A stretch of DNA of 46,876 nucleotides, taken from NCBI GenBank assembly GCA_017651165.1, contig JAGCDH010000004.1, positions 69,096-115,971 on the forward strand, written 5' to 3'. A program made the translations under genes and the position numbers. Shown here piece by piece: positions 4,635-7,767 of the stretch. The stretch's first letter is position 1, and every line of letters begins with the position of its first letter. The stretch is from Bacilli bacterium (GTDB lineage Bacteria > Bacillota_I > Bacilli_A > RFN20 > CAG-826). The notes under the pieces were generated by a model. That model was given only the letters and a program-made list of their open reading frames with translations. It did not search any database and was not told the DNA's origin.

Positions 4635-5363
4635 ATGAAGACTGCTTTCAATATCAACTTTTATCAAGACAAATTCTTAGACTTATTTCTTCCCGAGAAA
4701 GAAGAATTTATCACTATCATCCATTTCCATGGTGGTGGTTTAGTTGAAGGTGATAAAGGCGATACACATCAATATTGCGAACACCTAGCAAATGCTGGTT
4801 TTGCGGTGGCCACAGCGAACTATTCGTTGTTGCCGAATAATAAGTTTCCATCATTTGTGAAGGACGCTAGTGAAGCCGTTAAATACGTTATCAATAACAT
4901 TTCCAAATATGGTAAAAGCAATAAGTTTATCATCTCTGGTCAATCCGCTGGAGCGTGGTTAACATTAATGCTCTGCTTTAATAAAGAGTATTTGGGCGAA
5001 TATAGAAATAAGATTATTGGTTACATCAGTGATGCCGCTCAACCGACCAGTCATTTTAATATTTTAAAATATGAAAATGGCTTAGACCCATTGCTTCAAA
5101 GAATAGATGAAACCGCTCCTCTTTACTACGTTAACAAAGATACTAGTTTCTCTTCTATATTGTTAATGGTCTATGAAAACGATTTACCAAATAGGCTAGA
5201 ACAAAACGAATTATTAGTGAGCACGATTAAAAGTTTTAATGATAAAGCGAATGTTGAATTAAAAATACTAAAAGGCTATCACTGTAAAGGAAGTAGTGAA
5301 GTAGATGAAGACGGCGAATACGAAACCGTTAAAGTGATTAAAGAATGGGCAAAGAGATTATGA
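4635..5363 (+). CDS. Alpha/beta-hydrolase, putative acetyl-esterase
   Basis: A 242-residue alpha/beta-hydrolase of the hormone-sensitive-lipase/acetylesterase type, without signal peptide and thus probably cytoplasmic. The oxyanion motif HGGG is at 32-35, the nucleophile elbow GQSAG at 102-106 with Ser104, a candidate acid is Asp183 and the likely catalytic His is 216. It starts one base after the manA stop (again TAG-T-ATG). Context in a sugar operon suggests removal of acyl groups from imported sugars or glycosides, which is inference; the substrate cannot be read from the sequence. Confidence 0.8.
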   Translation: MKTAFNINFYQDKFLDLFLPEKEEFITIIHFHGGGLVEGDKGDTHQYCEHLANAGFAVATANYSLLPNNKFPSFVKDASEAVKYVINNISKYGKSNKFIISGQSAGAWLTLMLCFNKEYLGEYRNKIIGYISDAAQPTSHFNILKYENGLDPLLQRIDETAPLYYVNKDTSFSSILLMVYENDLPNRLEQNELLVSTIKSFNDKANVELKILKGYHCKGSSEVDEDGEYETVKVIKEWAKRL

Positions 5364-6085
5364 AAAAGATAAGTGTTTTGATGATTGGTAATTCCTTTAG
5401 TGTGGATGCCGCAAGATATACACATCAAATATCCGTTAATAGTGGTATTGAAATAGAATTAGGTGTCTTGTACGTTGGTGGTTGTTCTTTAGAAATGCAT
5501 GTCAATTTTATCAAAGAAGGATCCACACCATATGAATGGTTTATTAATGGAGAATCCACAGGAAAATATATTTCCTTAAAGGATGCCTTGTTAATGAAGA
5601 AATGGGATTATATAACCTTGCAACAAGTAAGCGTCTATTCTGGTTTATTAGATACTTTCTATCCTTATATTAATCAATTAATTGATTATGTTAGAAAATA
5701 CCAAAAAGAATCTATTTTGGTTTTGCATAAGACATGGCCTTATGAAACAGGATTTGATAACACTAATTTCGCTCATTATAACTACGATAGAAAAATAATG
5801 TATCAATCCATCAACAAAGCTTATGAAAGCGTTGCAAAAGATTTAGGTATTAATCTTGTTATTAGAAGTGGCGATATTATTGAAGCCGCGATTGAAAAAT
5901 ATGGCGAACATTTCCACAAAGATGGTTTCCATTTAAATGATGAAGGCCGATATTTAGCGGCTCTAGGTTTTGTTCATACATTTAATCAAAATAAAACAAT
6001 CAAGGAATTGTATATTCCAGAAGGCTTTAATAAAGATAAATGCATTGCATTTGATGAGTTTGTATCCCAAGTCTTAAACAAATAA
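5360..6085 (+). CDS. DUF4886/SGNH-like hydrolase
   Basis: A 241-residue protein resembling the DUF4886 group of the SGNH hydrolase superfamily. Block I is GNSFS at residues 10-14 (Ser as probable nucleophile) and the C-terminal block has DGFHLN, supplying the Asp-x-x-His pair. No signal peptide is seen. I chose ATG 5360, which overlaps the preceding TGA as ATGA, over an upstream in-frame ATG at 5345 that would overlap the esterase by 19 nt. It is the last gene of the sugar block. Together with the esterase it suggests two de-esterifying steps, plausibly on acetylated glycans; specificity is unknown. Confidence 0.78.
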   Translation: MKKISVLMIGNSFSVDAARYTHQISVNSGIEIELGVLYVGGCSLEMHVNFIKEGSTPYEWFINGESTGKYISLKDALLMKKWDYITLQQVSVYSGLLDTFYPYINQLIDYVRKYQKESILVLHKTWPYETGFDNTNFAHYNYDRKIMYQSINKAYESVAKDLGINLVIRSGDIIEAAIEKYGEHFHKDGFHLNDEGRYLAALGFVHTFNQNKTIKELYIPEGFNKDKCIAFDEFVSQVLNK

Positions 6086-6283: not shown

Positions 6284-6313
6284 TTGCATTAAAAATATAT
6301 TTTGTGGCATACT
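6284..6313 (+). promoter_or_regulatory. Sigma-A type promoter of the large RNA
   Basis: A -35 box TTGCAT (6284-6289), an 18-nt spacer and a -10 box CATACT (6308-6313) lie at the end of an extremely A/T-rich stretch (about 6140-6300) that could act as an UP element. The predicted start is about 6319-6321, exactly where GC content jumps and structured sequence begins. Confidence 0.65.
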
Positions 6314-6430
6314 ATAGAAACCCACCCGAGAAACCGAGTGAGTGAGAGACTAAGAATTGATAGATTCTTAGTATCTCAAGACCAGGTAAGACAATCAACG
6401 CAGGTATCTAAGTTGCTAAAGCGTTTCTGG

Positions 6431-6571
6431 GATCAAAGAAAAAGCCCAGATCAATGATTGCACTGGCAGGTTGCTTGTTGAAAGTAACCAAGGGCAAATT
6501 CCTCCCTGCTACAGTGGATGCTGAATTAGAGTTTGACAGCTTAAAACCACCGCCCGACACGATCGAAGAGG
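6431..6571 (+). repeat. RNA module copy 1
   Basis: It opens with a hairpin TCTGGG/CCCAGA (6426-6431/6445-6450) whose loop starts ATCAAAG, then a conserved GCAC (6460-6463), a GCTG/CAGC hairpin (6520-6523/6537-6540), and ends with CCGACAC...CGAAGAGG. Closest to copy 2: both share CTGCTACAG, TTAGAGT and TGACAGC in the same order. Confidence 0.8.
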
Positions 6572-6737
6572 AAGACGAAGGCCAATAACCCGTCCACCAC
6601 CCCACATTCAGGCTAGAGCAACCAAAAACCTGAAATAAACTATCCGGTCAGTGATGGCACAGATAGCGAATGGGCGAAAACTTAGCCTTAAAAATAAGAC
6701 GATCACCACTAAAACGACGTTGATAGTAAGGATCGGG

Positions 6738-6873
6738 GATTAAAGTTCCCAGTTAATGATCGCACAAGGCTGGAAATCCTTCGGGAAATCCAAACGGCAA
6801 ACCTCACTGCTACAGAAGCCGCTGAGTTAGAGTATGACAGCGTAAGACTTCCGCCGGACACAGGACGAAGAGG
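6738..6873 (+). repeat. RNA module copy 2
   Basis: Same order of elements as copy 1: hairpin GGGA/TCCC (6736-6739/6747-6750) with loop TTAAAG, GCAC at 6762-6765, GCTG/CAGC hairpin (6821-6824/6838-6841), and CCGGACAC...CGAAGAGG at the end. The start is 307 nt after copy 1. Confidence 0.8.
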
Positions 6874-7049
6874 GAAAAAAGAAAAGCGAGTTAGAGAAAA
6901 CCTAACCGCAAAGCCTAAATCACATTATTCAACTCAAAGTGTGATGATAACGGAAGAACCCAGATGGAAATTCCGCGAAGAAATGGCCTAAAGAACTTAA
7001 GACTAGATCAGTCAACCAGCTCCTCTAAACTGGTATGGGAGCATCTGAG

Positions 7050-7196
7050 GATTAAAGAGCCACAGTCAACTGGTTGCACTAGCAAAGTCCGTTAGAAATA
7101 GCGGTAATCGGTACGACCCCACCTGGCTAGCAATAGCCACCGGCATCTGCGTAAAAGCTTGGCAGAGTAAATCCGGCACCGGACATGACGAAGAGG
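7050..7196 (+). repeat. RNA module copy 3
   Basis: The most diverged copy, starting 312 nt after copy 2. The opening hairpin pairs CTG/CAG and GG/CC (7045-7050/7060-7065) around loop ATTAAAG. GCAC is at 7076-7079, the third-hairpin equivalent is TCTGC/GCAGA (7146-7150/7162-7166) and the end is CCGGACATGACGAAGAGG. The stems differ from the other copies but still pair. Confidence 0.7.
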
Positions 7197-7351
7197 GTAA
7201 CAGTCCCAAAGCCAATAACTTGGGAAAGCTGGCCATCAATGTGCTACTCAGTTCAAAACGCATTGTAAGAAAGAAGCAACACCAGCGAATGCAGCTTAAC
7301 TCGGATATCGATAAGGTTCGCCCTTATAATTCGGATATCACGGTTACAAAA

Positions 7352-7381
7352 AAGGAAGCGGAATTGTCCGCTTCTTTTTTG
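7352..7381 (+). terminator. Intrinsic terminator of the large RNA
   Basis: GAAGCGG (7355-7361), loop AATTGT, CCGCTTC (7368-7374), then TTTTTT. Strong hairpin with a U-run, in plus orientation. Confidence 0.9.
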
Positions 7382-7475: not shown

Positions 7476-7697
7476 TTATGCTCTAGCAATTCTGAAGCGA
7501 TTGTAGTAATCATAGACGTAAGCGATATCATGCTTGTTTCCATCAATGAAATATTCTTCATTGACTCTAAGATTAACTAAGTAGTGGTTATCGTAGTAAC
7601 GGAAGATGTAATCAATCGCCTCGTCTCTAGACTTGAATAGGTGATTGAACTTGATGTACTCGCCTTCTACAACAGCTTCCAAAGTGTACTTATTCAT
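7476..7697 (-). CDS. Small Tyr-rich hypothetical protein
   Basis: A 73-residue protein I do not recognise, with 11 tyrosines, no signal peptide and no membrane segment. The central segment HLFKSRDEAIDYI looks like a strand-helix unit. Its shape (basic/aromatic strand, then a helix starting with S/T-x-x-EA) loosely recalls the DUF2188 domain seen at 30375, but that is only a visual resemblance. The start is supported by AAGAGG 10 nt upstream. It has its own promoter, a structured leader and its own terminator, so it is an isolated, individually controlled gene. It converges on the large RNA gene. Confidence 0.75.
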   Translation of the reverse strand: MNKYTLEAVVEGEYIKFNHLFKSRDEAIDYIFRYYDNHYLVNLRVNEEYFIDGNKHDIAYVYDYYNRFRIARA

Positions 7698-7703
7698 ATT
7701 CAG

Positions 7704-7756
7704 AATACCTCTTTTCTAATGCCTTTTAACGTCATGCTTAGGACGAGGTATTCCTC
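7704..7756 (-). promoter_or_regulatory. Leader with two mutually exclusive hairpins around the RBS
   Basis: On the minus-strand transcript, GAGGAATACCTC (7756-7745) can fold on itself (GAGG/CCTC). Its 3' half AATACCTC (7752-7745) is also perfectly complementary to GAGGTATT (7711-7704), which contains the Shine-Dalgarno of the 73-residue protein. The CCTC segment can pair with only one partner, giving a possible RBS-open versus RBS-closed switch. The ligand or trigger is unknown. Confidence 0.5.
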
Positions 7757-7767
7757 TATGAAAGATT

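Follow-up and report, generated by a model that had tools for sequence, protein, structure and literature searches.

ROOL and GOLLD are large, free-standing, ornate bacterial RNAs that are encoded by phages and prophages, in many cases close to tRNA islands, and assemble into symmetric homo-oligomeric cages; ROOL, which is known from the rumen, contains several pseudoknots (PMC12286853). OLE, a large structured RNA of Gram-positive bacteria, is about 600 nt long (PMC9723947), and its function is open (PMC12265935). The RNA described here is encoded in a 46,876-nt stretch of DNA from a Bacilli bacterium, hereafter called the window, and is likewise large, free-standing and ornate. However, it differs from ROOL and GOLLD in lying outside any phage or tRNA context, in carrying its repeats inside one chain and in matching neither family in Rfam, and we only infer that it forms a particle. 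OLE, in contrast, lacks the repeats of the window RNA and is part of a membrane ribonucleoprotein complex, and its Rfam model does not match the window RNA. Repetition is also a feature of CsrB-type sponges, in which one noncoding RNA carries repeated conserved elements, whereas the domains of the window RNA are few and very large and keep a fixed order, and CsrA is missing from the 15 genomes tested. One further class, cow-rumen-1 (RF02946), is represented in Rfam by a single hairpin of 61 nt and was reportedly described in a paper of 2017. Here the same motif serves as the core to a ~300-nt domain that contains two pseudoknots and is present in three or five copies per transcript.

The RNA gene occupies positions 6320-7381 of the plus strand as tandem domains A, B and C, an organisation supported by Rfam matches, the arrays of relatives, promoter and terminator scans, a consensus fold and unit trees. 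Upstream lies a predicted promoter at 6284-6313 (-35 TTGCAT, 6284-6289; 18-nt spacer; -10 CATACT, 6308-6313), with similar hexamers at the same position in relatives. A sigma-70-like site was found upstream in 40/40 arrays scanned, nearly always at a distance of 219-242 nt from the first core; the window's best-scoring such site lies elsewhere, and TTGCAT/CATACT is the one at the orthologous position. An intrinsic terminator at 7349-7381, visible as an inverted repeat, comprises a 14-bp stem (7349-7362/7367-7380) and a U-tract, and 39 of 41 arrays have a terminator about 225-265 nt past the start of the last core. The GC content of the RNA is 0.456, compared with 0.181 in the upstream flank, 0.271 in the near-downstream region and 0.365 over the whole window. 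No ORF of 80 aa or more lies within 6320-7381, the longest ATG ORF there being 65 aa on the minus strand, and no ORF recurs among the arrays of relatives. The gene is intergenic, between a DUF4886 protein (5345-6085) and, on the opposite strand downstream, a gene for a 73-aa protein. A preliminary description, made from the DNA alone, had pointed to this promoter, a strong terminator, GC content above that of the flank and the lack of a plausible protein, and all four observations hold. Judged from these sequence features, 6320-7381 is a genuine noncoding RNA gene of ~1.06 kb with its own promoter and terminator.

When the gene was scanned against all 4227 Rfam families, the sole significant match was to cow-rumen-1, a 61-nt 'sRNA', which was found three times on the plus strand: at 6511-6571 in domain A (79.7 bits, E 1.8e-17), 6812-6873 in domain B (65.9 bits, E 1.8e-13) and 7137-7196 in domain C (70.1 bits, E 1.1e-14). 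All three cover the full 61-nt model and exceed its gathering score of 53.4 bits. OLE, ROOL, GOLLD, HEARO and group I/II introns gave no match, either at gathering threshold or in a second pass relaxed to E<=5, in which nothing convincing appeared besides cow-rumen-1 and no ribozyme or riboswitch match was credible. The preliminary description was thus right to set the RNA apart from these large classes, but the RNA is not wholly unclassified, although the matches span only 183 of its approximately 1062 nt. The claim of no known class, for which that description had named an Rfam search as the arbiter, falls to these matches (E down to 1.8e-17). No further copy of cow-rumen-1 was detected in the same genome at a meaningful score.

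These matches do not describe a short gene of ~61 nt, as the span from promoter to terminator is ~1.06 kb and holds three copies; a solo form of the unit, type D, likewise reaches well past 61 nt. Each match sits at the core of a domain of ~300 nt, indicating that what Rfam has catalogued is only part of a much larger RNA. The Rfam model includes neither the repetition of domains and their (AB)nC order nor the solo form or the two pseudoknots. In the literature searched, which did not include the 2017 source paper, neither the name cow-rumen-1 or RF02946 nor a description of a ~1-kb multi-domain RNA with pseudoknots and an (AB)nC plan was found. Cow-rumen-1 itself was already known, and what is new, as far as that literature goes, is the surrounding ~1-kb RNA.

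The preliminary description had missed the internal repetition. From the consensus fold and covariation, domain A (6380-6683) comprises helices 6380-6385/6463-6467, 6390-6397/6455-6461 and 6499-6504/6568-6573, the core hairpin, and helix 6607-6612/6629-6634. On the same evidence, domain B (6678-6997) has helices 6684-6688/6767-6771, 6698-6705/6757-6763 and 6734-6739/6747-6752, the core hairpin, and 6919-6925/6939-6945, while domain C (6993-7301) has 6996-7006/7079-7087, 7011-7018/7071-7077 and 7088-7094/7099-7106, the core hairpin, 7204-7211/7219-7225 and 7237-7243/7259-7265; all lie on the plus strand. Thirty-eight arrays with both flanks present contain exactly three units, two complete arrays contain five (G161 and G192), and one has at least five but ends at a contig end (G030). 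Unit spacing is about 300 and 320 nt. In a tree of 137 units, the A, B and C units, labelled by position, and the solo D units each formed one group without mixing (SH-aLRT 93, 96, 99 and 89, respectively), with three label changes on the tree (minimum 3; shuffled mean 67), and FastTree gave the same grouping with 139 units. The order is A-B-C or, in five-unit arrays, A-B-A-B-C, that is (AB)nC with n = 1 or 2, so that it is A-B, as a pair, that repeats, and C is always last. Solo D units were found in five genomes belonging to three genera (loci L102, L072, L081, L073 and L091), indicating that the domain is able to stand alone.

Repetition of this kind could in principle serve titration. CsrB titrates CsrA, and an array whose domains all share one protein or small RNA as their target might act as a multivalent decoy in a similar way; the strongly conserved unpaired strands of the repeated cores, the intergenic position among non-conserved neighbours, and the variation in copy number (1, 3 or 5 domains, with several arrays in some genomes) would all suit such a function. 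However, interchangeable sites would not be expected to keep a fixed A-B-C order and to form old, separate clades, domains of ~300 nt with two pseudoknots far exceed simple binding sites, and the classic target, CsrA, was found in 0/15 genomes tested, with positive controls. We therefore regard a decoy as rather unlikely.

The consensus fold was derived with RNAalifold from 34 non-redundant arrays. Since this method is open to being misled by phylogeny, we wrote a separate, R-scape-like covariation test, a home-made procedure combining a G-test and APC correction with a null in which alignments were simulated by redistributing the observed substitutions over the tree. This test, of a kind that the preliminary description had proposed as a check, identified 20 covarying pairs at E<=0.05 in the full RNA, each at least 80% canonical, and nine in the unit alignment, all of them canonical. 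The many strong local helices noted in that description were borne out as conserved structure but not as unusual stability, as single-sequence folding energies of the three domains are not beyond chance (z = -0.67, -1.43 and -0.08). The structure rests on covariation among 38 arrays, not on single-sequence folding. Outside the domains, the 5' leader (6321-6370) forms two hairpins, one at 6321-6342 with double changes at 6/7 pairs (76% canonical) and one at 6351-6370 with double changes at 7/8 pairs (98% canonical), in which 6354-6367 and 6357-6364 covary significantly. A 3' tail hairpin (7297-7346; helices 7297-7301/7342-7346 and 7305-7312/7332-7338) emerged from the analysis of helix canonicity and double changes in the 38 arrays. 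Several alifold helices linking distant domains or the terminator (6274-6280/7373-7379, 6679-6683/7292-7296, 6802-6805/7193-7196, 6853-6857/7179-7184 and 6870-6873/7118-7121) showed almost no compensatory change or none, and were discarded.

Two conserved pseudoknots recur in all domains and lie outside the Rfam model. In PK1 the loop of the core hairpin pairs with the 3' linker, and in PK2 the loop of the 5' subdomain pairs with that of the 3' hairpin. PK1 of domain A (AGUUU 6530-6534/AAACU 6678-6682) is 98.9% canonical with double changes at 3/5 pairs, and 6532-6680 reaches E=0.05; its counterparts in the 38 arrays are 98.9% canonical in domain B (AGUAU 6831-6835/GAACU 6993-6997) and 96.8% in domain C (AGCUU 7156-7160/CAGCU 7292-7296). 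PK2 of domain A (GUUGC 6412-6416/GCAAC 6618-6622) is 94.7% canonical in 38 arrays, compared with at most 49% when slid, and was included in a permutation test over all units; that of domain B (GUUGA 6719-6723/UCAAC 6929-6933) is 97.9% canonical without compensatory change, and that of domain C (AACUG 7028-7032/CAGUU 7249-7253) is 99.5% canonical with double changes at 2/5 pairs. Across units, the forms of PK1 include AGUUU/AAACU, AACUU/AAGUU, AAUUU/AAAUU and AGCUU/GAGCU, and PK2 occurs as GUUGA/UCAAC, GUUGC/GCAAC and AUUGA/UCAAU. PK1 was first seen in the covariation scan, and PK2 was spotted by visual inspection before being tested. Per domain, both are canonical in 95-99.5% of cases over the 38 arrays, compared with at most 77% when slid, and over all units both exceed 1000/1000 permutations, in tests that were not blind because the pseudoknots had been picked after inspection. 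Single pairs of PK1 are borderline, reaching E=0.05 for the unit set and E=0.1 for the full one. Apart from these linker pseudoknots, the covariation scan of the full RNA found no covarying pair joining two domains. Maintenance of the pseudoknots by compensatory change shows that the folded transcript is under selection.

Domains with double pseudoknots and conserved unpaired strands are, in general terms, aptamer-like, raising the idea that each is an aptamer or catalytic unit of a ribozyme or large metabolite-sensing RNA. This seems very unlikely to us: the transcript is ended by its own terminator with no regulated gene downstream, its neighbours are not conserved, and Rfam offered no worthwhile ribozyme or riboswitch match.

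Conservation in relatives, another check put forward in the preliminary description, was found within a single family. A model search detected the RNA in 44/224 genomes of the window's family, in 10/35 genera and in 10/16 genomes of its own genus. Some genomes carry several arrays, and the number of domains is 1, 3 or 5. Searches of the order (279 genomes, family included) and of an even sample of the class (395 genomes) found no genome outside the family. An extended 137-position model, built for this analysis, recovered the same 44 family genomes and, in a phylum sample, nothing outside the family. Among named genomes, a pattern scan picked out 35 stretches, all but two from Bacilli MAGs, which, where record titles tell (our only source on this point), come from the rumen, reticulum or omasum of buffalo, goat, water deer or reindeer. 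The two exceptions (L128, Roizmanbacteria; L138, Clostridia) are not matched by the extended model and were dismissed as chance, as were six viral contigs from the first pattern scan, which hold no cow-rumen-1. A second pattern scan of viral contigs gave zero, and phage and plasmid collections gave no match. Patchy presence (44/224 genomes) indicates that members of the family can do without the RNA. At well-supported nodes the tree of the RNA disagrees with the genus labels (13 changes against a minimum of 7), so there has been either transfer or old paralogy followed by loss. In genomes of the genus lacking the RNA, the flanking genes were not found in synteny.

Such a distribution might be expected if the RNA were a selfish or mobile element in rumen Bacilli, persisting through transfer and not through a cellular function. 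Patchiness (44/224; 10/16 in the genus), the tree conflict, neighbours that differ between genera and adjacent arrays in G192 and G199 are all compatible with it. Against this, no transposase, integrase, phage or plasmid context surrounds the arrays, the phage, plasmid and viral collections held nothing, the neighbours are ordinary genes, and promoter, terminator and pseudoknots are kept, the last through compensatory change. A selfish element therefore appears distinctly improbable.

The immediate neighbours vary by genus and have ordinary functions in metabolism, transport and housekeeping; no neighbour conserved across genera was found. PHROG matches are scattered, one tRNA gene was found in the 47 loci flanking the RNA, at a distance of about 5 kb, and the earlier statement that no phage genes lie nearby is upheld. 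An own promoter and terminator without a conserved linked gene fit a free-standing trans-acting RNA, and the lack of both a neighbour conserved across genera and CsrA would make a free-standing, trans-acting scaffold its most likely role. With roughly even confidence, we propose that the RNA acts in trans and that its domains form a single-chain pseudo-oligomer scaffold. The gene would give a ~1.06-kb transcript that starts at its own promoter and ends at its terminator. In each domain, PK1 and PK2 tie together the 5' stem subdomain, the core hairpin of cow-rumen-1 and the 3' hairpin. Each domain would fold independently into a compact module, and the modules may join through specialised A-B and B-C interfaces to form a single pseudo-oligomer. 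The resulting particle would be an RNA scaffold akin to one ROOL or GOLLD oligomer with its subunits fused in one transcript, and might offer a putative partner several copies of the conserved core strand (CCGGACA..GAAGAGG). More tentatively, the RNA may represent a new class of large ornate RNA limited to a family of ruminant Bacilli, with homologous, pseudoknotted domains specialised by position as (AB)nC that would come together within one molecule as a single particle, a covalent equivalent of the symmetric cages of ROOL and GOLLD. To our knowledge, natural single-chain RNAs of several homologous, position-specialised folded domains are rare. An orphan 61-nt motif thus becomes a ~1-kb RNA with a defined gene, a domain plan and testable pseudoknots, and its one-, three- and five-domain forms provide a ready series for structural study of RNA repeat architectures beside the ROOL and GOLLD cages.

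The 73-aa protein gene downstream (7479-7697, minus strand) has no Pfam match and, by genome comparison, is conserved beside the RNA in the genus, being linked to it in 8/8 genus genomes that have the gene. The protein is present in 44 family genomes, 28 of which have the RNA, and elsewhere its gene lies on other contigs or far off. Its distribution seems lineage-driven and linkage is lost outside the genus; on this evidence we rejected it as a partner of the RNA. A ZIP transporter occurs near the RNA in three genera, on varying sides and at varying distances. At L072 and L091 the D unit adjoins a comFA-comFC-secA-prfB cluster (gene names assigned from sequence), and at L102, L072 and L081 it is followed by a convergent small gene for a conserved ~100-aa protein, the L102 copy of which has no Pfam match. 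At L094 and L101, two complete arrays are adjacent in one genome with one gene between them (Mbeg1-like in L094), which suggests duplication islands. Finally, an inverted repeat (GAATACCTC ... GAGGTATTC) lies at 7700-7760 of the window, just upstream of the start of the 73-aa protein gene, and is possibly a leader or operator.
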